64,000 nt of DNA, from assembly GCF_022664535.1 (NCBI RefSeq), contig NZ_JAKUJY010000022.1, positions 1 to 64,000 on the forward strand, given 5' to 3'. Below are positions 7,597-28,490 of this stretch, one piece after another. The notes under the pieces were generated by a model. It was not told the origin of the DNA. It was given only the letters and a program-made list of their open reading frames with translations, and did not search any database. Each line of letters starts with the position of its first letter. Position 1 is the stretch's first letter. The stretch comes from Sphingobium trunci. Its GTDB lineage: Bacteria; Pseudomonadota; Alphaproteobacteria; Sphingomonadales; Sphingomonadaceae. Made by a program: the position numbers and the translations under genes.

Positions 7597-7785
7597 ATGC
7601 GCAAACTGGTCATTGCAATCTTCGCCGCAACTTCCCTGTTCGCCGTGCCCGCGAGCGCCGAGGCTGCGCCGTGCAAGGATGCAAAGGGTAGGTTCGTCAA
7701 ATGTCCCCCACCGAAGGCTGCAACGGCACCTTCGAGAAAAGCGCCCTGTCGCGACAGCAAGGGCAAATTCATCAAGTGCAAGTGA
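7597..7785 (+). CDS. Small exported protein with two PC-DxKG-F-KC repeats
   Basis: This 62-residue protein is translated from a good ribosome site (GGAGAAGGATTAATC before the ATG). A signal peptide (MRKLVIAIFAATSLFAVPASA) precedes a mature chain of about 40 residues. That chain is built from two copies of one motif, PCKDAKGRFVKC and PCRDSKGKFIKC, joined by a Pro/Ala/Lys linker. Each copy has two Cys, which could form an intramotif disulfide or bind a ligand. The mature protein is strongly basic. I know this kind of short repeat protein from sphingomonads but not its function. A perfect hairpin follows the gene. Confidence 0.75.
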   Translation: MRKLVIAIFAATSLFAVPASAEAAPCKDAKGRFVKCPPPKAATAPSRKAPCRDSKGKFIKCK

Positions 7786-7812
7786 CGATCAGTTAGCTGA
7801 GACGCCAGGCCG

Positions 7813-7844
7813 TCGAGGATCACGAGCATACTCGTGATCCTCGA
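7813..7844 (+). terminator. Perfect 14-bp stem-loop after the small repeat protein
   Basis: The arms TCGAGGATCACGAG and CTCGTGATCCTCGA are perfectly complementary around a CATA loop, 28 bases after the stop codon at 7785. There is no T-run after the stem, so it may act as a weak or bidirectional terminator or an RNA 3'-end stabiliser. It also separates the gene from the decayed amidohydrolase on the other strand. Confidence 0.6.
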
Positions 7845-8009
7845 TAGGTAGCAGCCTTCATCTGAGTGAAAGTCTGCTTTCGGGAAGCTCGGAGAGCCGG
7901 CCCAACGACCGCAATGCCGGCACCAGCGGACAGCAGGTTTGTTCCCGGGTAATGTCCGGAATCGACGCTGCCGCGCTCCGGAGCTGACCGTCGCGAAAGT
8001 CCCAGTCTT

Positions 8010-11247: not shown

Positions 11248-11471
11248 TCAAATTAACAAGCTTTGCAACCTTCATCGTGAAGGCGTCGGTAACTGAGCTT
11301 ACCCTGGCGCTCCGCGTGCACCCGTTACGTTCCGTTCAATTGAATCTGTCGCCTTCAGGGTAAGGCGGTCGAGATTACGTTTAGTCTGCGGATAGCCGAC
11401 CGCTTGAACCGCTTCCCATGATTGTACTGACGGCGGTAGCGGCTGGATTGGCGCCAGTGAAGGAAATTGAA

Positions 11472-13502: not shown

Positions 13503-13551
13503 TGATCGGGCTGGACGGTGCGCGTCCCAACCCCGTCCTGCCCGATCTCGC

Positions 13552-14448
13552 TCATTCCGCGAGCCGCTCTTCGCAGATTTCCTTCACCAGGGACTGAAGA
13601 TGACGGAGGCGTTCGCAAATCCAGTCCAGTTCTTCCACGGCGATCTTATAATGGTCTGAATAGCGTGCATTGACATAGGCGCTACGGAGCAGTTCAAAAC
13701 AACGCTGAGCAAAGCGCGTATCGCGTGGCCATGCTGCAATCAGCCGGCTTTCCTGTCCCTCACATTGTGAACGCAGAAAATTCAGCTTGTGAGATTTCGG
13801 TGAATACAGCCTCGCAACCAGAAGAAAGCAGTGATATAGTCTCTCGGTGGCCTGATGCAGAGCGAATGCTGCTTCGTTCGAATGGCCTTCGCTCATGGCA
13901 TGTCGCGCCATGCTCAAAAATCCCACTGAGCTTGGAAACCATTTGTCGAAATATTTATGCGCTTCCTCCCGGACCTCTTCGGGTGGGAGCTTGCTCGGTT
14001 GGTTGAAGGGGTGGTCAGGGGCTTCGTAGAGGACGATCCCGTCTCGGATGATATCGACAAAAAAGGGCCGCCCCTTTTTGAGCTGCGCATTGATGTCGGT
14101 GAGGCTGTGGTAGATCGGATTCACCGGCGTTCTGATCGTTTTGGTGATCGTCTGCGCCCGCATCAGATGATCTTCAGCTTGTGTCCAATATTCGACCGGG
14201 TCAGCCAGTTCCTCGTGGTTGACGACCACCAGGATGTCATAGTCCGAGAAATAGCCGCCAACCGGATCCTCGACCCAGTCGCCGCGCGCGTATGAGCCAA
14301 ATAGGATCACCTTCAATATCTTGCCCGCTTTCCGATGCGGCGCATTGCGGCCGGCCAGCGCATCATCGAACTCGGCAAAGAGGATGCGGACAACCTCTTC
14401 GAGTTCGGCGCGCTTGCGGAGAGGCAGATGATCAAGAGCGGTCTTCAT
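13552..14448 (-). CDS. Nucleotidyltransferase-HEPN fusion protein
   Basis: This 298-residue protein joins two domains usually found as separate toxin-antitoxin proteins. Residues 1-125 form a minimal nucleotidyltransferase, with VILFGSYARGDW and FSDYDILVVV giving the GSxxRGD and DxD-type catalytic site. Residues 150-290 form a HEPN helical domain (AMSEGHSNEAAFALHQATER and LYHCFLLVARLYS), with an RYSDHY motif near the end. In paired systems the nucleotidyltransferase modifies and silences the HEPN RNase. A fused version may instead act as a resistance-type or self-regulated enzyme. The function here is inferred from domains only. It is convergent with the M13 peptidase gene. Confidence 0.85.
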   Translation of the reverse strand: MKTALDHLPLRKRAELEEVVRILFAEFDDALAGRNAPHRKAGKILKVILFGSYARGDWVEDPVGGYFSDYDILVVVNHEELADPVEYWTQAEDHLMRAQTITKTIRTPVNPIYHSLTDINAQLKKGRPFFVDIIRDGIVLYEAPDHPFNQPSKLPPEEVREEAHKYFDKWFPSSVGFLSMARHAMSEGHSNEAAFALHQATERLYHCFLLVARLYSPKSHKLNFLRSQCEGQESRLIAAWPRDTRFAQRCFELLRSAYVNARYSDHYKIAVEELDWICERLRHLQSLVKEICEERLAE

Positions 14449-15139: not shown

Positions 15140-15667
15140 ATGACCGGCGAGCGAGGAAAAAGGCCGTCGCTGTCAAAGGACGGGCGGCGGGACGGGATGA
15201 TCGATCGGCTTTACCGGAATCATTCCGGCTGGCTGCTGGGAATGCTGCAACGCCGCTTTGCGGGCATGGGCCTTGAACCGGAGGATCTGGTGCACGACAC
15301 CTATATACGGGTCGCGCGTTATGACGAGGAAGCGACGCGGCGCCATCCCCGCGCCCTGCTGCTGCGGATCGGCGTCAATCTGGCGTGGGACCAGATGCGA
15401 TTTAACAAGTTCCGGCCTTCACCGCTCGCGGCCAATGATCCCGATCCGCCCTTGGACACCCCGACTTATGGCGATCAGGAATATCAGCTGGATCTCAAGC
15501 GGGCCATCCTCTCCCTGCCACCGGACCTGCGCCGTGCCTTTATTTTGTCGCGGTTCACGCCCATGACAAACGCAGACATTGCAAAGCGGCTCGGGATTCC
15601 GATCAAGACCGTGGAATGGCGGATTAGCAAGGCACTTGCACATATCGCGCAATGGCTGTCGGACTGA
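15140..15667 (+). CDS. FecI-like ECF sigma factor of the lasso locus
   Basis: This is a 175-residue extracytoplasmic-function sigma factor. Region 2 reads LYRNHSGWLLGMLQRRFAGM and then LEPEDLVHDTYIRVARYD, the core-binding and -10 recognition helices. Region 4 reads LPPDLRRAFILSRF and then MTNADIAKRLGIPIKTVEWR, the helix-turn-helix that reads the -35. The spacing matches FecI-type iron-siderophore sigma factors. The start could also be the ATG at 15197. FecR follows after 8 bases and the STN-type TonB receptor next, so this sigma should switch on the receptor and isopeptidase genes when the receptor binds its ligand. FecI/FecR pairs are a known companion of proteobacterial lasso loci with isopeptidases. 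Confidence 0.9.
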   Translation: MTGERGKRPSLSKDGRRDGMIDRLYRNHSGWLLGMLQRRFAGMGLEPEDLVHDTYIRVARYDEEATRRHPRALLLRIGVNLAWDQMRFNKFRPSPLAANDPDPPLDTPTYGDQEYQLDLKRAILSLPPDLRRAFILSRFTPMTNADIAKRLGIPIKTVEWRISKALAHIAQWLSD

Positions 15668-15675
15668 GGGCATAG

Positions 15676-16659
15676 ATGACCATGGGCAGGGAAGAGGACA
15701 GGAAGATTGAAGAAGAGGCCGCCTATTGGGTGACGCGCTTCAACTCCCGTGTCGCGGACAATGGCGAACTCCAGAAATTCTTCGAATGGAAGAAGGATCC
15801 GCACCATGCGGCGGCCTATGAACGGGCTGACAAGCATTGGCGCGTGTCGCAGGAACTTGGGAAAGATCCGGAAATTGCCCGGCTGATCGACCGGACGCTA
15901 GACGAGACGTCGCCCAGATCGGTTATCAGGCGCCCCGTCTTATGGATGGCGGGCGCGGTCATGGCCGGTGCCGTGGCGCTCGGCGCATTCCTGCTCTGGC
16001 CGCTCTCAATCCATTACGAGACCGGCGTCGGTGAGCAACGACTGGTGCGGTTGGACGACGGCACAAGCCTTCATCTCGATAGCGGTAGCGCGGTCGATGT
16101 GCGCTTTACCGCCGGGCATCGCCGCGTCTCCTTGATCAGTGGCCGCGCCCTTTTCGATGTCGCGCACGACAAGAACCGTCCCTTCGACGTCGATGCGGGA
16201 GCAGCGACTGTGCGCGCGCTTGGCACGCGTTTCGAGATCGATCGACAACGAGCTGACGCGAGGATTCTCCTCATCGAGGGTAAGGTCAAGGTGGATGCCG
16301 CGGAGTGTTCCACCGGGGCTTGCACCGATCATCTGCTTCCCGGTGACATGATGATGGCGAGCGAGGCGGGCCTGGGTGCCAAGGAGCGTGGAAATGTCCA
16401 GGCGATCACATCCTGGACGTCCGGCCGGCTTCAATTTACGGGGCGTGCGCTCGCCGATGCGGTCGATGAGGTCAACCGCTACTGCAAGTTGCCGATCATT
16501 CTAGACGCTCCAACCCTTTCTGACGAGCGCGTCAATGGCGGCTTCGCCCTGGGTGACCGGGATGCCTTCATCCGTGCCGTGACCGCCCTCTATCCTCTGC
16601 GGGCGTTGCATGAGGATAACGGCACCATTCGCCTGGTCCTTGACCCGGCGAGATCCTGA
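15676..16659 (+). CDS. FecR-family transmembrane anti-sigma regulator
   Basis: This 327-residue protein has an N-terminal cytoplasmic DUF4880-like region (EEEAAYWVTRFNS, FFEWKKDPHHAAAYERADKHW) that binds the sigma factor. One membrane helix follows at about residues 90-112 (VLWMAGAVMAGAVALGAFLL). The periplasmic FecR domain comes next, with VRLDDGTSLHLDSGSAVDV and VSLISGRALFDVAHDKNRPF, and then TVRALGTRFEI. The C-terminal STN-interacting part ends FALGDRDAFIRAVTALYPL. The protein should relay the receptor's signal across the inner membrane. It sits 8 bases behind the sigma gene and is clearly cotranscribed with it. Confidence 0.92.
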   Translation: MTMGREEDRKIEEEAAYWVTRFNSRVADNGELQKFFEWKKDPHHAAAYERADKHWRVSQELGKDPEIARLIDRTLDETSPRSVIRRPVLWMAGAVMAGAVALGAFLLWPLSIHYETGVGEQRLVRLDDGTSLHLDSGSAVDVRFTAGHRRVSLISGRALFDVAHDKNRPFDVDAGAATVRALGTRFEIDRQRADARILLIEGKVKVDAAECSTGACTDHLLPGDMMMASEAGLGAKERGNVQAITSWTSGRLQFTGRALADAVDEVNRYCKLPIILDAPTLSDERVNGGFALGDRDAFIRAVTALYPLRALHEDNGTIRLVLDPARS

Positions 16660-16777: not shown

Positions 16778-19700
16778 ATGAGAATTGAGGTTGTCAATCG
16801 AGCCAAGCGACAGAAGCGCGGGGCAAACAGGGTGCGCCACGTATTGATGACCTGTGCGGCCTGGGCGCTGAGTACCGTCCCCCTCGCGCCTCCCTTAGCC
16901 CATGCCCGGGAGGCCCGGCAGAATTTTGACATTGCCGCGGGATCGCTTGACCAAGCGCTACAGCGCTACATGGCGCTTACCGGACGCCAGATCCTGTATC
17001 GAAGCCAGCTTGTCGAGGGACGCCGCGCCAATGCGGTCGTCGGATCGATGGATGCCGATCAGGCTTTGCGCAAGCTGCTCGGCGGTCAGCCTATTGTCGT
17101 CAGTTTCCAGGGCCGCAACGTCTATGTGCTGTCCCCGCGTTCCGCGCCACCGCCAGCTGCGCGAACTCTTCCTCCTCGTCCAGCGCCCCAACGTCCCGCG
17201 CAAGTGGTGGCGCCGCGCCCGAAGCCGGTACCCGCTCCGGAAATGGTCTCGGAGCGCATCGTTGTCACCGGCACCAACATCCACTCGGCTGCGCCGCCTT
17301 CCTCCACGGTGATCAGCTTGACCGGCACCGAAATCGCCCGTTCGGGCGCTGGCACGGTCGCGGAAGCGCTGGCGTTGCTCCCGCAAAATTTCGGAGGCAT
17401 GGCGAATGAAGACACGAGCCTCACCGGCTCGGACCGGGTCAGCATCAATCCAGGCCTTGGCTCCAGCATCAATCTGCGTGGGCTGGGTTCCGACGCAACG
17501 CTGACCCTGGTCAATGGCCGCCGCACGGCGGGCGCGGGCGGGAAGGGCGATTTTACCGATCTCTCCAGCATTCCGGCGGTCGCGGTTGAACGCGTTGAGG
17601 TGCTGGCTGATGGCGCATCGGCGCTCTACGGCTCCGACGCGATCGGCGGCGTCGTGAATATCCTGCTGCGCAAGGACTTCGAGGGAGCGGAAAGCCGCCT
17701 GCGCCTTGGCACCGTGACGCGTGGCGGCAGCGAGGACATCATCGCCGGCCAGGTGGCCGGCGCGCGCTGGTCGACCGGCCATATCCTCGCCGCTTATGAA
17801 TATCAGCATCGCGGCCGTTTGCCAGGCTCCGCACGCAAATATACGCGCTCGGCGGACCTGCGGCCGCTGGGCGGGCATGACTATCGCCAATATTTCTCGG
17901 TACCCGGCACGATCGTCGCGCTGGACCCGGTCACCCGAACCTATGTCCCGGCCTATGCCATTCCCGATGGCCAGGACGGCACGGATCTCGAGCCCGGCGA
18001 CTTCATTCCCGGAGCGAGCCTCTCCAGCCCGCGCGCCCATGTCGACCTTCTCTCCAAGCAGGACCGCCACAGCCTGTTCGTGAGCGGTGAGCAGGAACTG
18101 ACCGACGGCCTCACCTTCTATGCCGAAGGCCGCTATTCGGATCGCACCTTCGAGGCCAATTCTCAGCCTTCGCTCACCATCATGAGCGTGACCCGCGCCA
18201 ACCCCTGGTTCGTCTCGCCCACTGGCGGTTCGTCGGTGGCCATCGCCTATGATTTCGGTCGGGACATAGGTCCGATCGTCAGCAGTGGCCGGGTGCGCAG
18301 CCACTCGGTGACCGCTGGGGTCCGCGCGGAGCTGGGCGGTGACTGGCAAGTCGACGCCTATATGTCGCACGCACGGCAGGTCGATCGGCAATTGAGCGAT
18401 CACCTGCTGAACAGCACCGCGCTCAACGAAGCGCTCGGCCTCACGGCTGACAATCCTCTGACGCCCTATAGCGCGCAGCGCGACGGCTATTTCAATCCGT
18501 TCGGCGACGGCGGCAGTAACAGCGCGACCATCAATAGGTTCATCGGCAGCGGCTTCATCCGGCAGCGCTACAGCAGCGAATTGCTGAACGGAAGCCTGAT
18601 CGCCGACGGCACGCTGATCGACTTGCCGGGCGGGCCTCTGAAGCTCGCCTTTGGTGCCCAGGCGCGGGAGGAGAATTTCGCCCGCTCGATCCAGACCTAT
18701 GCCTCGGGCATTACCCCGCCCGCGCCGGTGACCGCCAAGGCCAACCGTACCATCGTCGCGGTCTTTGGCGAACTGGCGGTGCCGCTGGTCGGACCTGGGA
18801 ATACGCGCCCCGGCGTGCAGCGCCTCGACCTGTCACTGGCGGTTCGGCATGAGCGCTATTCCGATTTCGGCTCGACCACCAATCCCAAGATCGGGCTGGT
18901 CTGGGAGCCAATGGAAGGTTTGCAGCTGCGGGGTAGCTGGGGTACCTCCTTCCGGGCGCCCGCGCTCCCGGAAATCTTCGATCCCTTCCGTGTCTCCTAC
19001 ACGCAGCTGCCGACGACCGGCGGCGGCAATTTGCCGGTCCTGTCGCTGCGCGGCGGAAACCGCGATCTGGAACCGGAAAAGGCAAAGTCACTGACCGCTG
19101 GGTTCAAGGCGCAGCCCAAGGCGCTGCCGGGCTTCGGTTTCGAGGCGAGCTATTTCCAGACCCGCTTCTCCAATCGCATTGGTCAGCCGGTTACCGAGAA
19201 TATCCTCCAGGCGCTCACAAACCCGATCTACGCCCCCTATGTGACCTTGATCGATCCGGCGCATAATGCCGCTGATCTCGCGCGCGTACTGGCGTTGCTC
19301 GCGGTGCCGGGGTCGAGCGTGCCGACAAGCTTCGCGCCCGAGTCTTTCCGCGCGATCATCGATGGGCGTTACGTTAATTCCGCCCGCGTTGATGTGCGCG
19401 GCGTCGACCTGCTGGTGCGCCAGAGCCTGACCCTCGGTGCGAATCGGTTGACCCTCTCGGTCAACAGCACGATCCTCATCGACTATAAGGATCAGCTGAC
19501 GCCCGCCTCGCCGATGATCGAACGCGTGGGAACGCTAGGCAACCCGGTCGACTTCCGCTTGCGCGGAGTGCTCGACTGGTCACGGGGCGATGTCGGGGCC
19601 ACGCTCTCGCTCAACCATGTCGGTCCCTACACCGACAACATCAGCGTTCCAGTCCGGCCGATCTCGTCCTGGAACGGGGTCGACCTGCAACTGCGCTATG

Positions 19701-19873
19701 AACCGTCAGCGGCGGAGGGCTGGCGCAAGGGCCTCAGCCTCGCGGTTACCGTGCAGAATCTCTTCGACCGGGACCCGCCCTTTGTCGATCGCAATCTCGG
19801 ATTTGCCTATGACCCGGCCAATGCCGATGTGCTCGGCCGCTTCGTCTCCTTGCAGGTGAAAAAGCGATGGTAG
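16778..19873 (+). CDS. STN-domain TonB-dependent outer-membrane receptor, lasso-associated
   Basis: This 1031-residue protein has a signal peptide at about residues 15-45, then an STN signalling domain at about 50-120 (FDIAAGSLDQALQRYMALTG, DQALRKLLGGQPIVVSFQGR). A Pro-rich linker leads to the plug, which starts near residue 158 (SERIVVTGTNI). The plug contains INLRGLGSDATLTLVNGRRT and VEVLADGASALYGSDAIGG. The 22-strand barrel then runs to the terminal aromatic (LQVKKRW). The STN domain passes ligand binding to FecR, so this is a transducing receptor. By position it should recognise and import the lasso peptide made by the convergent genes, or a ligand mimicked by it. That pairing is known for this cluster class but is not proven here. 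Confidence 0.92.
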   Translation: MRIEVVNRAKRQKRGANRVRHVLMTCAAWALSTVPLAPPLAHAREARQNFDIAAGSLDQALQRYMALTGRQILYRSQLVEGRRANAVVGSMDADQALRKLLGGQPIVVSFQGRNVYVLSPRSAPPPAARTLPPRPAPQRPAQVVAPRPKPVPAPEMVSERIVVTGTNIHSAAPPSSTVISLTGTEIARSGAGTVAEALALLPQNFGGMANEDTSLTGSDRVSINPGLGSSINLRGLGSDATLTLVNGRRTAGAGGKGDFTDLSSIPAVAVERVEVLADGASALYGSDAIGGVVNILLRKDFEGAESRLRLGTVTRGGSEDIIAGQVAGARWSTGHILAAYEYQHRGRLPGSARKYTRSADLRPLGGHDYRQYFSVPGTIVALDPVTRTYVPAYAIPDGQDGTDLEPGDFIPGASLSSPRAHVDLLSKQDRHSLFVSGEQELTDGLTFYAEGRYSDRTFEANSQPSLTIMSVTRANPWFVSPTGGSSVAIAYDFGRDIGPIVSSGRVRSHSVTAGVRAELGGDWQVDAYMSHARQVDRQLSDHLLNSTALNEALGLTADNPLTPYSAQRDGYFNPFGDGGSNSATINRFIGSGFIRQRYSSELLNGSLIADGTLIDLPGGPLKLAFGAQAREENFARSIQTYASGITPPAPVTAKANRTIVAVFGELAVPLVGPGNTRPGVQRLDLSLAVRHERYSDFGSTTNPKIGLVWEPMEGLQLRGSWGTSFRAPALPEIFDPFRVSYTQLPTTGGGNLPVLSLRGGNRDLEPEKAKSLTAGFKAQPKALPGFGFEASYFQTRFSNRIGQPVTENILQALTNPIYAPYVTLIDPAHNAADLARVLALLAVPGSSVPTSFAPESFRAIIDGRYVNSARVDVRGVDLLVRQSLTLGANRLTLSVNSTILIDYKDQLTPASPMIERVGTLGNPVDFRLRGVLDWSRGDVGATLSLNHVGPYTDNISVPVRPISSWNGVDLQLRYEPSAAEGWRKGLSLAVTVQNLFDRDPPFVDRNLGFAYDPANADVLGRFVSLQVKKRW

Positions 19874-19928: not shown

Positions 19929-22457
19929 ATGCGCTTCTCATTGCTGGCGGCGCTATGCCTGGCCGCGGCCGGCATCGCCGATGCACGCCCCTATGGCGTG
20001 GACGATATGCTGCGCGTCGAAAGCTACGGACAGGCGCTGGTCGATCCCCATGGCGAATGGGCCGTGATCGATCGCTATCGGCCCTACGACAGCGGCACCA
20101 GCTATCGCTATGATGGCTTCAACCGGCGGGGCCTGGGTGTCGTGATGCGCCTCGCCCTTCAGCATGGCGGCCGATTGGAACCCCTGTTCAACCAGGATGT
20201 CGGCGCGGGCTACTGGATCGCGAGCCTCTCGCCCAGCGCCAAGCGCCTAGCGGTTTTCCGGCTGAAGGACGAGACCCTGTCGCTCGGCATTGTCGACATG
20301 GAAACGCGGGAGGTGGACTGGCTTCCCCAGTATCCCGCGACCTCGCTGCTGCATCCCGCGCCCGACTGGCTGGATGACCGCCGGCTGTTGCTGGTCGAGG
20401 CGAATGGGCCGTCACTGCCTTGGCCTCTCGCGGCCGGCAGCCGCTACCAGGCCGAAGTCACGTCCCTTTGGGCGCGCACGGCGCGAGGGCAGGCGCCTGG
20501 TGTGTCCGTGGTTGGCGGCAAGGGCGAGGCGGCGCCGGCCCCGCGACGCCGCCTGTCGATCGTGGACGTTGAAACGAAGGAAGCGCGGCAGATCGCCGCC
20601 GGGCCAATCGCCGATGTCGCGATCTCGCCCGATCACGCATGGCTGGCACTGCTCCGCGAAGGCCCGGAGACGGCCGTTCCTCCGGACGTCCCGGTGCGGT
20701 CGAGCGACCAGAACCGCCAATACCGCCTGTCGGTTGTCCCGCTACGGGGCGGGCCGGAGCGGCAAGCCTGTGCTGATTGCGATATTCAGCCGGGCTTTCT
20801 CGAATGGGCGCCCAAGGGCGGCCATCTCATGTTCTTCGCGCGCAAGTCGGGTGGAGACTGGGCAAAAGGAGAGTTGCGGTACTTCGACATGCGCTCTGGC
20901 CGCGGCCGGCCAGTTTTGGACGGCGTGACGCCCTTTCTGCCACCTGATGACAGCGGCGTTCGACTTGTTCGCGCCGGTTGGTGGGGGGATATCCCGCTCG
21001 TCTTCGGCAATAGGGGTGGGGGACCGAACCGCTGGACTGGTCCGCGCTCGAAAGCATCGATCGAAAAAGCGCTGGAGCGGTTGCCCTGCCAGCCCTCGGC
21101 GCTGCAGGCGGGGAGTCTCCGACTGCTCCTCGCCTGCCCCAACGGTCTTTGGGCGATGGACCGCATGGGCAAATCAGAGCGGATCGTGGAAGGCGTACCG
21201 GTCCTGATGCCTCGCCCGGCGAGCGAAAGTTTCGATATCGGGATTCGCGCCAACCATCGATCGATCACGCCCATTAGCGACGACGCGCCCATTCTCGTCC
21301 CACGGGGAGCAGAGGCGCAACTGGGCTGGCCGGGAGCGCCGATGCGGCGGATCAATATCGCGGATTATCCTGTCTCGCGTCTGCTAGCCGGCAGCAGGCG
21401 TGGCGGCATTGCGTTGTGGGTCGCGCGCAATGTCCGGGGTGTCGGCCGGCTCATGGCCTCAGGGCCGGCCGGCGTTCGCGAGGTGGATCGGATCAATGCC
21501 CATCTGGCCGATATCGATCTGCCGGCCATGCAGGCACTGCCGAACCGATCGACCGGGCTTGTCGATTGGTTGATCCTGCCATCGGGGATGAAGGATCGGC
21601 CATGGCCCCTGGTCGTGGTTCCCTATCCCGGCACGACCTTCAGCGCGGGCCGTCCGCCGTCGCTTGCGCCCGACATCGTGGCCTCAGCTGTAAATCCGCT
21701 CCTGCTCACGAGCTTGGGCTACGCGGTGCTCATGCCGAGCCTTGCCGATGCACGCGATGGGACGGATCGTGGCGCTAATCTACAATCCCAAGTGGAGCGG
21801 GCGGTCGACCGGGCCATTGCGACGGGTCTTGTCGATGGTGAGCGAATGGCAATCTACGGCCACAGCTTTGGTGGCTATGCGAGCCTCAAGATTGCCACCC
21901 AAAGCCATCGCTTCCGTGCCTATATCGCCAGCGCGGCTCCGGCTGATCTTGCTATCCAGCATGGCGCGCTTCCCCCGCCCGACAGCGTGAAGCTGGACGA
22001 GGGGTTTCCGCTGACCTCGGGGTTCGGCTGGGCGGAAGGCGGGCAGGGGCATATGCTCACCGGACCGCAGGCAGCGCCCGAGCGCTATTGGCGCAGCAGT
22101 CCCTATTACCAGGCCGATGGCATAAGCGATCCGCTGCTGCTCATTCACGGCGATATTGACGCGGTGCTCGCCATCAATTCCGAGCGTATGTTTGCGCGGT
22201 TGCACCGCGCTGGCCGGGACGTCACGCTGCTGCGCTATTGGGGCGAGGCGCATAATCTGCGCAGCCCCGGCAATATTCGCGATATGTGGCGCCAAATAGC
22301 CGCGTGGCTTGGTGATCGGCTGTCCGTCGGCAGGACGGCTACACCCAACGCCGCGCCCATGTTTCCATCGCCACCAGGGTCGCGAGCAGGGAATGGTCGC
22401 CACGCCAGAGCAGCGCTCGCGCATCCAGCATCGGCTCCAGCGCCGCGCGGTCGATAA
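19929..22457 (+). CDS. Lasso peptide isopeptidase, Atxe2-like prolyl oligopeptidase family
   Basis: This 842-residue exported enzyme (signal MRFSLLAALCLAAAGIADA) has an N-terminal beta-propeller to about residue 540 (RPYGVDDMLRVESYGQALVD, ASLSPSAKRLAVFRLKDETL). A C-terminal alpha/beta hydrolase follows. The catalytic Ser is in IYGHSFGGYASLKIATQ at about residue 645. The Asp lies in LLIHGDIDAVLAINSERMF and the His in RYWGEAHNLRSPGNIRDMW; that His region is a hallmark of the lasso isopeptidases. The enzyme cleaves the side-chain amide that closes the lasso ring, linearising the imported peptide. The last 39 or so codons run antisense into the 3' end of the cyclase gene, and this C-terminal tail has no counterpart expected from the family. 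Confidence 0.92.
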   Translation: MRFSLLAALCLAAAGIADARPYGVDDMLRVESYGQALVDPHGEWAVIDRYRPYDSGTSYRYDGFNRRGLGVVMRLALQHGGRLEPLFNQDVGAGYWIASLSPSAKRLAVFRLKDETLSLGIVDMETREVDWLPQYPATSLLHPAPDWLDDRRLLLVEANGPSLPWPLAAGSRYQAEVTSLWARTARGQAPGVSVVGGKGEAAPAPRRRLSIVDVETKEARQIAAGPIADVAISPDHAWLALLREGPETAVPPDVPVRSSDQNRQYRLSVVPLRGGPERQACADCDIQPGFLEWAPKGGHLMFFARKSGGDWAKGELRYFDMRSGRGRPVLDGVTPFLPPDDSGVRLVRAGWWGDIPLVFGNRGGGPNRWTGPRSKASIEKALERLPCQPSALQAGSLRLLLACPNGLWAMDRMGKSERIVEGVPVLMPRPASESFDIGIRANHRSITPISDDAPILVPRGAEAQLGWPGAPMRRINIADYPVSRLLAGSRRGGIALWVARNVRGVGRLMASGPAGVREVDRINAHLADIDLPAMQALPNRSTGLVDWLILPSGMKDRPWPLVVVPYPGTTFSAGRPPSLAPDIVASAVNPLLLTSLGYAVLMPSLADARDGTDRGANLQSQVERAVDRAIATGLVDGERMAIYGHSFGGYASLKIATQSHRFRAYIASAAPADLAIQHGALPPPDSVKLDEGFPLTSGFGWAEGGQGHMLTGPQAAPERYWRSSPYYQADGISDPLLLIHGDIDAVLAINSERMFARLHRAGRDVTLLRYWGEAHNLRSPGNIRDMWRQIAAWLGDRLSVGRTATPNAAPMFPSPPGSRAGNGRHARAALAHPASAPAPRGR

Positions 22458-24102
22458 TTCCCTGGCGGACCAGATGCCCTTCGCGCAGCACGGGCCCAAG
22501 CCGATCAAGTTGAAGGGCGATGGCCCGGCTGTAAAAGCCCGTAGCCTCCCCCTTGGTGCGCCGATTGCGCACGGCGTCAGGCAACCATTGCGCGAGCACG
22601 TCGCGCGCACCGCCCCGGTCCCGCTCGTCGGGAACCAGTTCCCAGGTCGGCACGCGCAGGCAATGTTCGACGACAGGCTGCGACAGCATGGGATGGGCAA
22701 GCCGCAGACCGGCAGCGGTTAGGGTCGGGGCATGGAAGATCTGGCAATTGGCAAGCATGGCGATTTGCAGCCGTTTGCCGGGTGGCAGCCGCCTTGCCTC
22801 CTCCATCCAGGGGTGGAGCGGCAAGCCTGCTTCGAATTGCGCGCGAAGCAGCGGTCCGGCCAACGCGGCTTGAAAATTGGGAGCGGCGCGAGCCGGGGCG
22901 GGGTGTAGCGATCGCCAGAGAACCGACCAGATGGAGCGATCGGTTGACGCGGCGCTCGCGGCAATGAGCCGCCAATAGGCAGGGCCGGGACCTTTGGCCC
23001 GGAGTCGGTCGGCCGCGACATGAGGACCGCGCGGTTGAAAGAGAACAGCGTCACCGCCCTGGCCGCTCAATATGCGGGTCGCGCCAATTTCGTCGGCCAT
23101 GCGTACCGAGATTCGGTCCGCGGTGAGATCGAGGCCATAAACCAAGGGCTGCTCCGGTCGGGATCGCTCCACATGGGATAGATAGTCGATCTCTTCCGGT
23201 TCAATCCCGACTTCTACCAGGGGAATATCCCAGTGCCCGGCCACCGCGCGGGCAAAGCGGCTTTCCCCCCCACCGGCCGAGCGCGGCACGAGATGGAGCG
23301 CCTGGATAGCGGGCCGTTCCTTCCGACTGGCAAGCCCGCCCAGGATCAGCGAGGAATCAAGGCCACCGGACAGCTCGACCGAAATCTGGTTGCTCCCCCG
23401 CGTCCAGCCGCCAATGCAATTGCCCAGGACCCGTGGAAGATCCGAGAGAGACTCCGGCCCGCGTCGAACGATGGCGGCGGGCGACCAGATGGACTCGGTG
23501 GTGATGCCGCTATCGCCGACATGATAGACTCGGCCGGGAAGCGGGATGGTCACGTCCGTGAGCGCGCTGAGGCTACCGGCTCGTTCGGGCAGCGCGGTCA
23601 GCGTCGCGAGCGCGGCCCAGTCAATCGTTGGTCGGACCCCCAGGCTTTCGAGCAATGTGTCGGGCAGGCCTCCGGTGATGAGCGTGAGGCCATCGACCTT
23701 CCAGATGTAGGCGCGCAGCGCGCCGGATGGATCACGCATGAAGCTGGTCTGCTGGCGTTCCGCGTCATGAACGAACGCGACATAGCGGCCCCAACAGAGG
23801 CGCGTGAGGGCGGTCAACGGTTCGAGCGGCGCGATGAAGCTTTCCAGCACCGCTGGCAGGGATTCGGCCGGCAGGCTCCCCGGCAACAAGGTGCCGAGCA
23901 CATGCACGCCATGTTTTCGTGCGCTGCTGAGCCCCCAGTTCGATTGCGGCGGCTGCGCGAGCAACAGAAAGCCGGGATGGTCGGCCTGGGCGATGAGGTC
24001 GGGCAGGCGCGCGCGCAAGGCGCTGGCGATGGTCCGGGCGCGGGCCTCGGTCGAGGAGCCCGATGACGCGAGTAGCGCGCAGAAGCATAAGGGTTCAGAC
24101 AC
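22339..24102 (-). CDS. Lasso peptide cyclase (C protein, asparagine synthetase-like)
   Basis: This 587-residue protein starts at the GTG at 24102, overlapping the end of the B gene by 8 bases (GTGTCTGA), so the two are translationally coupled. A longer frame exists but its extra N-terminus is antisense noise. The N-terminal glutaminase-like domain lacks Cys at position 2. The synthetase domain has ISVELSGGLDSSLILGGLAS (the SGGxDS PP-loop), TRILSGQGGDAVLFQ and later RNRRTKGEATGFYSR. It should adenylate the acidic side chain in the core peptide and join it to the free N-terminus, forming the ring around the threaded tail. It converges with the isopeptidase gene, with a 119-base antisense overlap. 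Confidence 0.92.
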   Translation of the reverse strand: MSEPLCFCALLASSGSSTEARARTIASALRARLPDLIAQADHPGFLLLAQPPQSNWGLSSARKHGVHVLGTLLPGSLPAESLPAVLESFIAPLEPLTALTRLCWGRYVAFVHDAERQQTSFMRDPSGALRAYIWKVDGLTLITGGLPDTLLESLGVRPTIDWAALATLTALPERAGSLSALTDVTIPLPGRVYHVGDSGITTESIWSPAAIVRRGPESLSDLPRVLGNCIGGWTRGSNQISVELSGGLDSSLILGGLASRKERPAIQALHLVPRSAGGGESRFARAVAGHWDIPLVEVGIEPEEIDYLSHVERSRPEQPLVYGLDLTADRISVRMADEIGATRILSGQGGDAVLFQPRGPHVAADRLRAKGPGPAYWRLIAASAASTDRSIWSVLWRSLHPAPARAAPNFQAALAGPLLRAQFEAGLPLHPWMEEARRLPPGKRLQIAMLANCQIFHAPTLTAAGLRLAHPMLSQPVVEHCLRVPTWELVPDERDRGGARDVLAQWLPDAVRNRRTKGEATGFYSRAIALQLDRLGPVLREGHLVRQGIIDRAALEPMLDARALLWRGDHSLLATLVAMETWARRWV

Positions 24103-24727
24103 GGGCAATGGATGCGTACCAGCGGACATGATCAGCCCAATCATTGAGGACACGCCCCTGCCATTCGATCCAGCAATGGGCTTCGAAGGGATAGGTGCGC
24201 ACGCCGAAGATCCATTGCGCGGCGACACCACGTTTACGTAAGGTGCGAAACAGCAGCCAGGACTGGACGAAGCAACGGCCGCTGCGCGGCAGAAGGATAC
24301 GCAATTGCCGGAACCGCTGGACCAACCGCACAACACCGGCGTCATCCAGCCTGCACTGCGTGGCGACGGCGACCGGGCGGCGGAGCAGAGCCTTGCGGCG
24401 GAGCTGATAATGGATGAGCCCCAGGATGACTGTCGGGACGAGCGTCAGGCTCGCGATCGTGCCGCCGCGGGGAGGCATGCCATCCTCCGGTAAGGTTGGG
24501 TCGAGGATGGATGGAATATGGTCATCCACCTCGCGCAGCAGTCCGGCGTCGACCAGTTCTCGGATGATCGGGTTGCCGGTATCATGGTCGTCGCCCTTGA
24601 TGGCGAGAATGACATCTTGTGCATCTTTGCCCGCGAGACAGAGATAACTGTCGTCGGCGAGGTCGAGGAAAATAAGGTCCTTGCCGACATCGGCGACACG
24701 GACATGGGTGGTGGGGGTGAGTGGCAT
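24095..24727 (-). CDS. Lasso leader peptidase (B protein: RRE plus Cys protease)
   Basis: This 210-residue protein fuses two modules. Residues 1-80 form a PqqD-like recognition element that binds the leader (THVRVADVGKDLIFLDLADD, SYLCLAGKDAQDVI). Residues 95-210 form the transglutaminase-like protease. The catalytic Cys is in PRSGRCFVQSWLLF, the His in PFEAHCWIEW and the Asp in RVLNDWADH. It removes the leader after the -1 residue and works with the cyclase. The single-chain form is normal for proteobacterial lasso systems, unlike the split B1/B2 of Gram-positives. It starts 60 bases after the precursor stop, beyond a terminator-like hairpin, and no strong ribosome site is visible. Confidence 0.92.
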   Translation of the reverse strand: MPLTPTTHVRVADVGKDLIFLDLADDSYLCLAGKDAQDVILAIKGDDHDTGNPIIRELVDAGLLREVDDHIPSILDPTLPEDGMPPRGGTIASLTLVPTVILGLIHYQLRRKALLRRPVAVATQCRLDDAGVVRLVQRFRQLRILLPRSGRCFVQSWLLFRTLRKRGVAAQWIFGVRTYPFEAHCWIEWQGRVLNDWADHVRWYASIARV

Positions 24728-24743
24728 CGAGAGCGCAGCCCGT

Positions 24744-24777
24744 AAAAAAGGGAGCGGCGTCCGAGTGGAGCCGCTCC
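24744..24777 (-). terminator. Intrinsic terminator or attenuator between lasso precursor and BC
   Basis: Read on the minus strand, GGAGCGGC and GCCGCTCC pair around an 11-base loop and are followed within one base by TTTTTT. It sits 10 bases after the precursor stop and ends 16 bases before the B start. A partial terminator here would make much more precursor than enzyme message, which fits lasso stoichiometry. Confidence 0.8.
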
Positions 24778-24787
24778 GAGGGGAAAG

Positions 24788-24904
24788 TCAGGGCCAGCAC
24801 AGGACGGGCATGAATTCTTCGCTCTCGCCCATCTGGACGATCGCATGGGTATCGCGCGAGACGCTGCCGAGGCGCCGCAGGGACACGGACTTCACTTTGG
24901 TCAT
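24788..24904 (-). CDS. Lasso peptide precursor A1 (38 residues, Ala1 core)
   Basis: The gene is preceded by AAGGAGG with 6 bases to the ATG. The leader is MTKVKSVSLRRLGSVSRDTH and the core is AIVQMGESEEFMPVLCWP. The leader end LGSVSRDTH matches the LGxxSxxTx pattern before the cleavage site in astexin-type precursors, with Thr at -2. That places the N-terminus of the core at Ala. Ring closure would use Glu9 (9-membered ring) or less likely Glu7. The tail is EFMPVLCWP, with one Cys and a Trp as a possible steric plug. Most proteobacterial cores start with Gly, so the Ala is unusual. It lies directly upstream of the B and C genes. My calculated [M+H]+ for the unmodified lasso is about 2047.93. 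Confidence 0.9.
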   Translation of the reverse strand: MTKVKSVSLRRLGSVSRDTHAIVQMGESEEFMPVLCWP

Positions 24905-25394
24905 CACGAACCTCCTTGGGGTTTGCCGGTCATCGGCCTGGCCATGAGGCGCTGGCGGCGCTCACTATTCAATCGATATTGGCTCTATATTCCTCGGGGA
25001 CAGCGACGAGGCGTCGAGCGGGCGCGGACACCAGTGAATGAACAATCGCGGCGGCCGACGGTGGCTGAAAATATGTCTAAAATATCATATGTCATTTTGA
25101 ACCTGATGCTTGATGAGCACCTCGATGCATTGTTCGCCGGTTGATGGCGGCACCGGGCTTTGGAGCCAAAGGGGAGGGATTCGCGCTACTTGCCCGGGTG
25201 CCGATCGTGGTTGGGGACGAACTGCGTTCGATCCGACTTTTCCGCGGAACGACGGTCGGATGGTCCGGCCCCAGGTCGATGGGTATTGCTCTGTTCCGCG
25301 TCGTGCCGACCTGTCGCGCTCGAAATCGATGAGCCAACGCATCCCGAAGGCGAGTGGTGGATCGACCTCGAGATCGATGGCGGCCCCGTTTACC
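24905..25394. other. 490-base non-coding region upstream of precursor A1
   Basis: It holds the A1 ribosome site and leader (24905-24964), the conserved 25-bp element (24965-24989) and an AT-rich patch at about 25065-25110. The rest, to the end of hipA, contains no convincing coding frame on either strand and may be debris from insertion of the hipBA segment. Confidence 0.5.
24965..24989 (-). promoter_or_regulatory. Conserved upstream element of lasso precursor A1
   Basis: On the minus strand this reads ATAGAGCCAATATC, then GATTGAATAG. The same block, with two internal substitutions, lies 64 bases before the second precursor gene. Here it is 60 bases upstream of the ATG. The flanking DNA is unrelated, so the block is probably the shared promoter or a regulator site. 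Confidence 0.65.
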
Positions 25395-26690
25395 CTATAC
25401 GGTCTGAACCAGTGCCGTGAGATAGGCAGCGCTCTCGCGCAAGCCCGTGAAAGCATACGGATTCAGGAACTGGCGCCGCCACATGAGATTGCGATCGACC
25501 TCGCCGAGTTCGGCCGCATCGCATTCTTCCTGCCAGTGGTCACATATCGCGCGGATCTGGCTTTCGACTTTGGCGATGGCCTGCTTCTCGTCCAGGCGGA
25601 AGTTCGGGGCTGACGCAAGAGCGGTCTCGATGCGGCTGGAGCGATCCTGCCCCACGATCAGCATCGCCTGGCTCGCTTCCTGCCCTGCCCTGGCCTGCGG
25701 GCAGATGTCGTAAGCCGGCGTCAGCGTAAGCGCGCTTCCGTCCCAGAAGGCGGCATGATTGCGGGCGTGGTCGTCGGTGTTCCCGGCGAGGATGTTGAAG
25801 ACGATGCGGCCGAACAGTTCGTGGAGCGTATCTGTCGAGGCCGTGAAGCGATGGCGGACGATCTCGGCGAGATCCTCATAGCTGGCATAGCGGGCCATCA
25901 TTTCATCGAGCCCAGCGAGCGTCAGCGCGGATACCATCGCTCGCCGCGACCATGCCCCATTGGCGGGCAGACGATCGAACCTCTCGACCAGCAGCACATC
26001 GCGTCCTGAAGCATGGACAAGGTGGACCCCGGCAACCTGCAACCCGGCGCGCGCGGCCAGGCGCATTGCCACGAACTCGGCCTTGACGACGCTGTAGACG
26101 TCGCTGGTCGACGAGAATTTTGCGATCAGTTTGCGCTGGCCGTCGGTGATCAAGGCTTTGGGCCGCGCGCCGCCGATAGAGCTGCCGTGGTGCAGCGCCT
26201 GGTCGAGTTCGGGCGAAAGTGGCAGGTTCTGCTCGACCTTTTGCGCGGACGCCATCAATTCGTCGAGCGCGGCCTGCGAGGCGCGGGGTACATAGTCCGT
26301 GGCCGAGGTCTGAAAATCAAGCGCCCCGATCCGATCCGAACCCGATTCCAGAAGAAAGGTCAGTTCATCGAGCTGGCGGTCGTCCAGGTCGTCGCCCTTC
26401 ACTCCGAAAGTGCGGTTCAGAATGACCCGCCGTCCCCACGCGTCTGGCGCGGCGTCGCGGATCGCGCTCGGCATGGAGAGCCCGGCCGGAAGCGGCAGGA
26501 GGCCCGCGCGCAACGGTAACTCCGGATCATAAAGCGATATCGCGCCTGCACGATCCAAATAGGTGCGGCCATAGGCGAATCTTATGCTTGCTCCTCGCCG
26601 GACCAGGCGGCCGGCGATGACGGGTTCGATCTCTCCGGGCAGCCAGGTCCAGACGAAGGCATCGTCGGGATGTGGGATTTCAGAAGGCAT
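25395..26690 (-). CDS. hipA: HipA-family serine/threonine kinase toxin
   Basis: This 431-residue protein starts at the ATG at 26690, inside the end of hipB (11-base overlap); a longer frame to 26759 runs antisense-like over hipB. The N-terminal beta domain (GRTYLDRAGAISLYDPELPL) is followed by the kinase core. The Gly-rich loop is SSIGGARPKALI, the lysine is in KLIAKFSST, the catalytic loop is NILAGNTDDHARNHA and the metal-binding part is LTPAYDICP. HipA kinases phosphorylate a translation factor (glutamyl-tRNA synthetase in the E. coli model), causing growth arrest and persistence. Its partner HipB is encoded immediately upstream. The pair sits between the two lasso precursor genes. Confidence 0.92.
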   Translation of the reverse strand: MPSEIPHPDDAFVWTWLPGEIEPVIAGRLVRRGASIRFAYGRTYLDRAGAISLYDPELPLRAGLLPLPAGLSMPSAIRDAAPDAWGRRVILNRTFGVKGDDLDDRQLDELTFLLESGSDRIGALDFQTSATDYVPRASQAALDELMASAQKVEQNLPLSPELDQALHHGSSIGGARPKALITDGQRKLIAKFSSTSDVYSVVKAEFVAMRLAARAGLQVAGVHLVHASGRDVLLVERFDRLPANGAWSRRAMVSALTLAGLDEMMARYASYEDLAEIVRHRFTASTDTLHELFGRIVFNILAGNTDDHARNHAAFWDGSALTLTPAYDICPQARAGQEASQAMLIVGQDRSSRIETALASAPNFRLDEKQAIAKVESQIRAICDHWQEECDAAELGEVDRNLMWRRQFLNPYAFTGLRESAAYLTALVQTV

Positions 26691-27030
26691 CGTCGACCTC
26701 GTCGTCGCTCTCGCGCACATATTTCGGGAGGACGGCGATCCGATCGCCAGTCCGGTCAATCATGGCGGTGATCCCCTTCAAGTCGGCATCGAAGAGGGCG
26801 ACACCGACGATCGCCGCCGCCTCGAAATAGATGCCGATCTCAACCTTGGGGTCTCCGCGCTCGAGGCGACGCAGCGTTCCACGGGAGATGCCTACGCGTT
26901 CGGCGAGAAGAGCGGCGGTAATGCGCTTTTGCTTACGGCCCAATTCTACCAGGCGACCGAGAAGCGACACCGCCTCGCGGGTATACCGGCCATAGGCGCG
27001 ATCTGTCGGGGTCGGCAATGGGCGCTCCAT
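26680..27030 (-). CDS. hipB: HipB-family antitoxin, XRE helix-turn-helix
   Basis: This 116-residue protein carries an HTH at about residues 38-62 (LLAERVGISRGTLRRLERGD) followed by a short dimerisation part and an acidic tail (ESDDEVDDAF). It should bind HipA, neutralise it and repress the hipBA promoter. The stop overlaps the hipA start, so the two are translationally coupled. AT-rich sequence with partial dyads (TGATGTGATATGG) lies directly upstream of the ATG and is the likely operator, but I cannot define its arms. Confidence 0.88.
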   Translation of the reverse strand: MERPLPTPTDRAYGRYTREAVSLLGRLVELGRKQKRITAALLAERVGISRGTLRRLERGDPKVEIGIYFEAAAIVGVALFDADLKGITAMIDRTGDRIAVLPKYVRESDDEVDDAF

Positions 27031-27492
27031 CGATCATATTGATGTGATATGGTTGCTGCATAGACCATGATCGAGGGAATGGCAATTCAGAATGCCGTAA
27101 ATGATAGCGATAAGGACCATATCTCGGCTATATGGGCCATGGATGTTCCACAGGTCGAGCATGAACGACCGCCTGCTGGCGGCCGCCGCAAAAACGGGAG
27201 GCATCCCATGCGATCGCGAACCCTGGCTCAGGCCCGTCCCGAAGGCTGGAAAGTGAAAATGTGCCGACCACCCGTGGTCGACTTATTTGTGCGCCGCATA
27301 TCATCCGCCGAGGACAGCGCGCGACGATCGAAGTTCAAGAAGGTCATAGGATCGATCTCCCGGAAGCCTCATCTCTTGAACGATCAGTGGGCATGGGCGG
27401 CCGGCCGTCACGGAGTGGATCATGCATGCAATGATGCCGACACCGGCCAGGTGGCCTGGTTCGGGCACAGAAAAGAAAGGTGCGACGAGGAA
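27031..27492. other. Non-coding gap between hipB and the second lasso precursor
   Basis: This 462-base stretch contains the hipBA promoter near its left end and the small dyad CCATAT-CTCGGCT-ATATGG at about 27117-27135. Its forward and reverse frames give no credible protein. It ends at the stem-loop that follows the second precursor gene. Confidence 0.5.
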
Positions 27493-27520
27493 GGAGCGAC
27501 CTTCCCGAGAAGGCCGCTCC
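27493..27520 (-). terminator. Stem-loop after lasso precursor A2
   Basis: On the minus strand GGAGCGGCC pairs with GGTCGCTCC (9 bp with one G-U) around a 10-base loop, 12 bases past the A2 stop codon. It corresponds to the terminator after A1 in position and in its GGAGCG...CGCTCC arms, but the T-run is degraded to TTCCTC. Confidence 0.6.
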
Positions 27521-27532
27521 CGAGTTGTGGGG

Positions 27533-27649
27533 TCAGGCGTAAGACAGGACGGGGATGAATTCCTCCTGCTCGCCCACCTGAACAATCGCCTTGGTGTCAC
27601 GCGAGACACTTCCGAGGCGCCGCAGGGACGCGGATTTCACTTTGGTCAT
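27533..27649 (-). CDS. Second lasso peptide precursor A2 (38 residues, Ala1 core)
   Basis: The leader is MTKVKSASLRRLGSVSRDTK and the core is AIVQVGEQEEFIPVLSYA. It matches A1 at 30 of 38 residues, with changes at positions 7, 20, 25, 28, 32, 36, 37 and 38. Many silent differences show the copies are not brand new. Glu7, Glu9 and Glu10 of the core, the EF-x-PVL tail and an aromatic at core position 17 are all kept. The ribosome site AAGGAGG is identical in placement. No B or C gene is adjacent, so A2 must rely on the enzymes 2.8 kb downstream. It lies behind the GntR gene in the same direction. My calculated [M+H]+ for the unmodified lasso is about 1974.02. Confidence 0.88.
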   Translation of the reverse strand: MTKVKSASLRRLGSVSRDTKAIVQVGEQEEFIPVLSYA

Positions 27650-27713
27650 CACGAACCTCCTTCATTGGAAAGTGCCGAACATCGGCCCCCCTACGAGGCT
27701 CCCGCGAAGTTCT

Positions 27714-27738
27714 CTATTCAACTGATATTGGCTCTATT
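27714..27738 (-). promoter_or_regulatory. Conserved upstream element of lasso precursor A2
   Basis: On the minus strand this reads AATAGAGCCAATATC, then AGTTGAATAG, nearly the same as the element before A1 and 64 bases from the A2 start. Its first bases overlap the stop codon of the GntR gene, so the duplicated unit apparently begins exactly here. Confidence 0.65.
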
Positions 27739-28363
27739 TCCATTCTGTAGCCGATCGCGCGATGGACTCGTGCCGACGGGCGATTTCGAGGGCGGCCTTG
27801 CGCCGGCGGCTGTAATAGGCGTTCGTGAAGCGCTGGAGGAGCCGCCGATCGTTACCGTCCAGCCGCTCCAGAAACTCCGCGGACTCGGCGGCAAGGTCGA
27901 ACATCGATGCCTCCGCCGCGTGGGCGGGCGCGAGCCTGGCATCGAGATTGGTAGCGATCAGGCGGAGGAGTTTGCTCGCGGTCTGGCCGGCCAGCGTTAC
28001 AAGGATCGTGCCGCTGTCGAACATCATCATCTCGGTGCCCTGCGTGGCGACGTTGGCGGGAAGCACGACAGGTTCATTCAATATCGAGGCCGCGGTCGTC
28101 TGGGCAACGGTGTAGAGTTCGGTCAATTCCACCGGGCCAAGGAGGGGTACGAAATAGCCCAGACCCCGCCGTTCCTCGAGCAAGCCCTCGCCGGCGAGCC
28201 GCGCCATGGCCTCTCGGACCGGCGTTGGACTGAAGTTGCAGGTTGCCGCACAACGTGCGACCGAGATATGCCGCCCTTCTGGCCAGTGGCGTTCGCGAAG
28301 AGCCTGACGGATCGCTTTATAGGCTTGTAGATATGCCCTGTCTTCGATGTTGCCCATGAACAT
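27734..28363 (-). CDS. GntR-family transcriptional regulator
   Basis: This 209-residue protein starts at the ATG at 28363, which has GGAAGGGA 7 bases upstream; a frame to 28414 is open but lacks a ribosome site. The winged helix is in residues 10-70: YLQAYKAIRQALRERHWPEG, then NFSPTPVREAMARLAGEGLL and RRGLGYFVP, the classic GntR recognition and wing. The C-terminal 130 residues are helical (FCD/VanR-like size) with no obvious metal His set. The gene ends inside the element controlling precursor A2 and reads in the same direction, so read-through into A2 and regulation of the lasso genes are both plausible. Neither is shown. Confidence 0.85.
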   Translation of the reverse strand: MFMGNIEDRAYLQAYKAIRQALRERHWPEGRHISVARCAATCNFSPTPVREAMARLAGEGLLEERRGLGYFVPLLGPVELTELYTVAQTTAASILNEPVVLPANVATQGTEMMMFDSGTILVTLAGQTASKLLRLIATNLDARLAPAHAAEASMFDLAAESAEFLERLDGNDRRLLQRFTNAYYSRRRKAALEIARRHESIARSATEWK

Positions 28364-28490
28364 GCTGCGTCCCTTCCAAGTCCGAGTCATGGAAGTTGCG
28401 GTGATGCAAGGCATAGGCGAGATAAAAGTGATCGAAATGCGGTCGAATGGCTCAAATTTGTATCAGAGCACTTCAACTCCGCCATTATTT

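Follow-up and report, generated by a model that had tools for sequence, protein, structure and literature searches.

The DNA examined is a window of 64 kb, the whole stretch that was analysed, from contig NZ_JAKUJY010000022.1 of Sphingobium trunci (GCF_022664535.1). It carries a lasso peptide locus with two diverged precursor genes (A1 and A2) and genes for a leader peptidase (B), a lasso cyclase (C) and a long S9-family serine peptidase (E). On the plus strand the order is fecI, fecR, TonB receptor and E; the minus strand carries C, B, A1, hipA/hipB, A2 and a GntR gene. The features are:

15140–15667, plus strand: FecI-like extracytoplasmic function sigma factor (PF08281, 48.7 bits, cut-off 25.7)
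15676–16659, plus strand: FecR-like anti-sigma regulator (PF04773, 83.1 bits, cut-off 24)
16778–19873, plus strand: TonB-dependent receptor with an N-terminal STN signalling domain (PF00593, PF07715 and PF07660, all over cut-off)
19929–22457, plus strand: E, long S9-family serine peptidase of 842 aa, proposed lasso isopeptidase (PF00326, 81.2 bits, cut-off 22.6)
22339–24129, minus strand: C, Asn-synthetase-like lasso cyclase, 596 aa from the ATG at 24129 (PF00733, 95.4 bits, cut-off 21)
24095–24727, minus strand: B, B2-type leader peptidase of 210 aa (NF033537, 63.7 bits, cut-off 33)
24788–24904, minus strand: A1, precursor, predicted core AIVQMGESEEFMPVLCWP (direct reading)
24966–24980, minus strand: putative operator/promoter element AATATCGATTGAATA, upstream of A1
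25395–26759, minus strand: HipA-like kinase toxin, a bystander between A1 and A2 (PF07804, 169 bits)
26680–27030, minus strand: HipB-like antitoxin, a bystander (PF01381, 28.2 bits, cut-off 23)
27533–27649, minus strand: A2, precursor, predicted core AIVQVGEQEEFIPVLSYA (direct reading)
27715–27729, minus strand: putative operator/promoter element AATATCAGTTGAATA, upstream of A2
27734–28414, minus strand: GntR-family regulator (PF00392, 45 bits, cut-off 27)

Both precursors are 38 residues long, with the predicted leader MTKVKSVSLRRLGSVSRDTH preceding the core in A1 and MTKVKSASLRRLGSVSRDTK in A2, and in both genes the sequence AAGGAGG lies six bases 5′ of the ATG. Each has Thr at −2 and Asp or Glu among core positions 7–9, the pattern required of a precursor. 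The two genes are copies of an imperfect direct repeat spaced 2745–2749 nt apart, matching at 84% over 131 nt and at 72% over 76 nt of the upstream DNA next to it. The masses given in an earlier, sequence-only reading of this DNA for the dehydrated cores, 2047.93 and 1974.02, were reproduced on recalculation ([M+H]+ 2047.933 for A1 and 1974.022 for A2).

That reading had also proposed a lasso locus with two diverged precursors and a search for them in sphingomonad genomes. The locus and both sequences stand as given, and with A1 as query the pair was found in five of the 94 genomes of the genus, the window genome included. A1 copies end in CWP in all five carriers, the Cys being kept, and A2 copies end in SYA. 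Between orthologs, the A1 core shows one to four synonymous and zero to two nonsynonymous codon differences per pair, and the A2 core zero to six and zero to two; summed over pairs, the differences are mostly synonymous. The A1 and A2 cores of one genome differ by three to five synonymous and six to eight nonsynonymous codons. The numbers are small, and the pattern fits constraint within each paralog and diversification between the two. Recurrence of the pair, together with the mostly synonymous core differences, indicates that A1 and A2 are more than chance open reading frames (ORFs). The SY of the A2 tail is common to a second genus, and the CWP tail of A1, with its Cys, looks derived. Open-licence PubMed Central full text was searched with both window cores, two partial cores, the core of one ortholog and a leader string, and no paper matched.

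Beyond the genus, 397 genomes were drawn from the family and 11 family loci were taken for a detailed look. The lasso architecture recurs in eight genomes of other genera. Four genomes of the second genus (L034–L037) have single precursors, with cores AIVTAGQQEEFLPILSYN and similar, and those of L038–L041 are more distant. In L041 (G129) two precursors, at 7746–7853 and 6603–6683, flank the GntR gene on either side. The GntR-A-B-C genes, E and the TonB receptor occur together in nine of the 11 loci, with the receptor adjoining E in each; the other two, L042 and L043, contain no lasso genes and were rejected as lasso loci. A plasmid collection held no precursor match; 23 of its records carry a relative of C, all below 60% identity, and two of these were inspected.

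The frames of B, C and E are open and intact, and B and C carry their family domains. Residues C152, H184 and D196 of B are invariant in 10 sequences, and the protein probably carries a fused leader-binding region; its profile found no match among solved-structure sequences. The LSGGLDS motif of C is invariant in 10 sequences apart from Leu257. Ser646, Asp744 and His775 of E, invariant in 16 sequences, are the presumed S9 catalytic triad. E and C are convergent, and their 3′ ends overlap by 119 bp on opposite strands (22339–22457). An overlap of equal length is seen in L033, and overlaps are also present in L152 and L041.

To define the probable cleavage site and ring, 19 cores of the sphingomonad branch were compared (two each from the window, L033, L041, L044, L153 and L154, four from L034–L037 and three from L038–L040). 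Thr at −2 and Glu9 are present in all 19, and Ala1 in 18, the exception being Ser in L039. This bears out the earlier proposal of a cut after Thr-x that leaves Ala as the first residue. The predicted cut thus lies between −1 and Ala1, with Thr at −2. An acidic residue at position 7 occurs in just 10 of the 19, and because Glu9 is invariant, the best reading is a ring of nine residues closed by Glu9. Xanthomonins have a seven-residue ring formed on Glu7 of a short core, and the window cores likewise have Glu at this position, so closure on Glu7 was considered. All 10 Sphingobium cores have Glu or Asp there, as such a ring would need, but the other nine cores of the branch have Gln, Ala, Val or Arg while retaining Glu9, and the published cores with identical copies among our loci have Glu at 8 or 9. 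With position 7 so variable, Glu7 closure was rejected as the main reading and is considered very improbable. Of the two ring sizes allowed by the sequence-only reading, the nine-membered one is thus favoured and the seven-membered one less likely. Exceptions to Thr at −2 are treated in sections of PMC10368454.

The wider distribution of this type of locus was surveyed with an alignment of 10 C proteins, which gave 47 loci in the named genome collection; the first 24 listed (L044–L067) were used and L068–L090 left out. Further loci came from class, order, Caulobacter-genus (42 of 45 matches used) and Brevundimonas-genus searches. These scored at most 7–13 candidates per genome, so that counts from them are lower bounds. 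A long E gene was found in at least 30 of the 75 genomes of Caulobacter (the genus of L048; E-values up to 1e-100) and at least 62 of the 131 of Brevundimonas (the genus of L053; up to 1e-150). The long enzymes are encoded beside C and span about 740–940 aa, mostly 780–860, a range that includes window E.

In a FastTree reconstruction of B plus C from 83 loci, a single clade (support 1.0, unrooted splits) unites 56 of the 58 long-E loci, and within it 13 sphingomonad loci group with support 0.992. The 58 do not form a single clade, because two Hyphomonas loci, L049 (E at 11492–14056) and L063 (11493–14192), have a long S9 enzyme with B and C that fall elsewhere, possibly through exchange of the E gene. 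In L063 the precursor combines an acidic leader with a core that starts with Gly; L049 and L211, another long-E locus, yielded no precursor.

Candidate precursors within 1 kb of B were then tallied with the first core residue left free in the pattern. Window A2, which lies beyond this limit, and L152, taken as the same genome as L044, were omitted. The long-E loci gave 101 candidates in 57 loci and 95 distinct predicted cores, beginning with Ala (39), Gly (37), Ser (15), Thr (2) or Asp (2). Distinct cores of the sphingomonad branch are 13 Ala and one Ser; the 81 outside it are 37 Gly, 26 Ala, 14 Ser, two Thr and two Asp. Loci without long E gave 33 precursors in 24 loci, and all 31 distinct cores begin with Gly. 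On the opposite strand seven chance matches were counted over the 87 loci of both groups, versus 134 sense matches, and at least one of the latter looks like chance (L209, SPAWLGAEN...). Because the Caulobacter loci were picked by their E, the locus set does not sample lasso clusters at random. The Asp1 cores (DATGTILPEMFTSERYNPA, DGSGILVPEVFQPDAYSGI) and Thr1 cores (TGGGWMLLEDNFVLKYDPL, TGGGGVDYEDNFILRYDQA) are predicted from Caulobacter loci L228, L229 and L223 and follow the usual LTQ leader end.

The long-E clade includes L215, whose cores are identical to caulosegnins I–III, and L208, with a core identical to caulonodin VI, the published sequences being those tabulated in PMC12427821. The earlier view that the window cores resemble no named family was therefore wrong, since B and C cluster with the loci for these published peptides. 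Ala1 had been regarded as exceptional, but on the predicted cores it is common, not odd, in this branch, and caulonodin VI provides a published precedent. The related statement that most proteobacterial cores start with Gly fits the loci without long E; in the long-E clade Ala and Gly are about equally frequent, with Gly ahead of Ala once the sphingomonad branch is set aside. Unprecedented N-terminal residues of lasso peptides were reportedly described by Zimmermann et al. in 2014.

A table in PMC12427821 gives the caulonodin VI core as AGTGVLLPETNQIKRYDPA, with Ala1 and Glu9; the gene for the identical core at L208 belongs to the same B/C clade and is accompanied by a long S9 enzyme. Caulonodins IV–VII as listed there resemble the window cores in having Ala1 or Ser1, Glu9 and 17–19 residues, but differ from them in sequence, and none of the four listed contains Cys (PMC12427821). 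Caulonodins IV and V had no exact core match among the loci compared, and caulonodin VII as printed (SGIGDVF...; PMC12427821) differs at two positions from a core at L208 (SGIGVLF...). The caulosegnin locus shares with the window a B/C clade, a long S9 peptidase, a GntR match, several precursors and a leader of the form LG......T-x; its cores have Gly1, however, and are unrelated to the window cores beyond the ring-closing Glu. One enzyme set produces both eight- and nine-residue rings from the three caulosegnin precursors, according to passages of PMC13352647. First residues observed in lasso peptides are given as Gly, Cys, Ser and Ala in part of the metanodin paper (PMC12670498).

The AtxE2-type clusters of astexins, benenodins, sphingopyxins and sphingocin also resemble the window locus, sharing the GntR-A-B-C order, a convergent S9 enzyme, a TonB receptor, FecI/FecR and Thr at −2. 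They differ in their acidic leaders, in Gly1 (31 of 31 distinct cores examined), in an acidic residue within the last two positions (26 of 31) and in an isopeptidase of the AtxE2 family (six of six tested). With Ala1 and a basic leader, the window locus is not of this astexin/benenodin type. Sphingocin of Sphingomonas BPH is presented as a Gly1 system linked to phenanthrene use in an extract of PMC11006600. Another lasso cluster, a conventional Gly1 one, lies at a contig end of the S. trunci genome (G000:C28:37396-38010; L148 8379–9020); its precursor ends in ELTR followed by GNSLDGGDDNAGVMRKPIGLSPDE.

Precursors were also checked in 23 loci, comprising 20 of the best-scoring Brevundimonas-genus matches plus L045, L053 and L198; B was detectable in 17. 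In 13 of these 17, a fraction that is not a genus rate because the best-scoring loci were taken, a single precursor ORF contains two (11 loci) or three (L045, L266) in-frame leader-core units:

L045, 8633–9085: multi-unit precursor
L053, 8707–9015: multi-unit precursor
L198, 3745–4032: multi-unit precursor
L266, L267, L269, L270, L272, L274, L276, L277, L279 and L282: multi-unit precursors

Each unit has T-R before Ala1 and Glu9, so that the register T-R-A.......E, with the predicted cut after Arg, is repeated within one ORF. The automated count for L272 was three units, and two by reading. Twelve of the 13 loci are from Brevundimonas, and L198 came from the Caulobacter-genus search. The C gene of L053 is split; L267, with a nearly identical precursor, has C whole. 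A literature search, mostly at title level, found no title on multi-unit lasso precursors, which does not imply their absence from print, and multicore terms had no match in the portion of PMC13352647 covered. Engineered graspetide repeats are treated in passages of PMC13003496.

All nine family lasso loci have a GntR match ahead of the precursor gene, and a candidate operator lies upstream of both window precursors. The pattern AATATNNNTTGARTA occurs twice in the 64 kb and in none of 100 shuffles, an estimate of chance that is not independent because the pattern was derived from these same upstream regions. The same motif precedes A2 in L033, L152, L153 and L154. A relaxed version is present in these and in L034, L035, L036, L039, L041, L045 and L053, and was not found in L037, L038, L040, L147 or L155. 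Only one of 42 Caulobacter-search stretches (L167, L168 and L198–L237 scanned) has it, which marks it as a branch-local element.

The hipBA genes (25395–27030), which the sequence-only reading had not mentioned, separate A1 from A2 in the window genome only, among the five carriers of the pair. No HipA match was present in the fetched stretches of the other four (L033, L044, L153, L154), and HipBA was accordingly rejected as part of the lasso system; just weak short repeats surround it, beyond the precursor repeat. An insertion found in this genome alone could have uncoupled the precursors and left the locus decaying or silent, with nothing made. This seems a remote prospect, since all frames are intact, the precursors have ribosome-binding sites, the enzymes keep their conserved catalytic residues, and A1 has a putative operator copy of its own, absent before A1 in the four relatives.

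Upstream of E, the fecI homologue is found in the same position in L033 and L044 (73–79% identity), and a FecR homologue in L033, L044 and L045 and, in part, in L037. Genes for an M13 metallopeptidase and a nucleotidyltransferase-HEPN protein (11418–14448) precede fecI and occupy the same position in L033.

Taken together, it is highly probable that this Sphingobium-like bacterium has a functional lasso system of the type known from the caulosegnins and caulonodin VI, working as set out below. Domain and family matches to B, C, the TonB receptor, FecI, FecR and GntR support this, as do the recurring gene arrangement, the precursor pair in relatives, the conserved Thr at −2, Ala1 and Glu9, the B plus C tree and the repeated register of the multi-unit precursors. 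Several points weigh against it: the lasso products are predictions from the genes; Pfam found no PqqD/RRE domain in any of 10 B proteins, though B has an N-terminal region of the right size for one; C falls far short of the NCBIfam lasso-cyclase cut-offs (83.2 against 300 and 21.7 against 525); the neighbours of B and C that were examined showed no ABC transporter gene; and E lies outside the AtxE2 family, with 53.7 bits against model NF033523 (cut-off 400).

The last point concerns the function of E (19929–22457), most of which fell outside the locus as first delimited. B, C and the isopeptidase had been called intact, which is true of their frames; for E, we infer the isopeptidase activity, because its score is so far below the AtxE2 cut-off. 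All five long-E proteins tested (window E and four others) score 46–76 bits with this model, versus 500–799 bits for the six S9 enzymes from Gly1 loci, and judged by sequence E belongs to an S9 peptidase lineage other than that of AtxE2. Its fold is that of S9 peptidases, with structures of an S9 carboxypeptidase, acylaminoacyl peptidase and DPP4 as best matches, and comparison with solved-structure sequences returned other peptidases only. Neither AtxE2 nor SpI-IsoP was among the matches listed in two fold searches, which excludes nothing. These scores and matches would suit a peptidase with another task, such as tail trimming of the lasso or breakdown of imported peptides. We regard this as a serious but less likely option, as E sits beside the TonB receptor and convergent with C, the same position as the AtxE2-type isopeptidases described in parts of PMC9266682.

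Under the favoured interpretation of a functional system, B would bind the basic leader and cut A1 and A2 between −1 and Ala1, using Thr at −2, and C would form the bond between the side chain of Glu9 and the amine of Ala1. The products would be two threaded lassos of 18 residues with nine-residue rings. The peptides would exit the cell and be sensed or imported by the TonB receptor, with a signal passing through FecR/FecI. The ring would be opened by E, which is likely to be the isopeptidase and probably lies in the periplasm, and GntR may control the precursor promoters.

A broader proposal, to which we give about even chances, is that lasso systems of the isopeptidase type include a second class, a large one found across Caulobacterales and sphingomonads, to which the window locus belongs. 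The class would have its own S9 lineage instead of AtxE2, would accept Ala, Ser or Gly, and perhaps also Thr or Asp, as ring-forming first residue, and would include the Brevundimonas precursors fused to two or three units. The Sphingobium pair would be a core-diversification event within it: one tail, SYA, resembles that of the neighbouring genus, and the other, CWP with its conserved Cys, would be derived.

The window locus is itself ordinary in kind and well supported, and its predicted products are new. The two cores come with firm predictions (Ala1–Glu9 ring, masses and conserved tails) and are ready for heterologous production. Clusters with GntR, a TonB receptor, a sigma/anti-sigma pair and an isopeptidase are covered in passages of a review in which their biological role is called enigmatic (PMC9266682), and loci such as this one offer a direct test ground both for the isopeptidase activity of a non-AtxE2 S9 enzyme and for that role.

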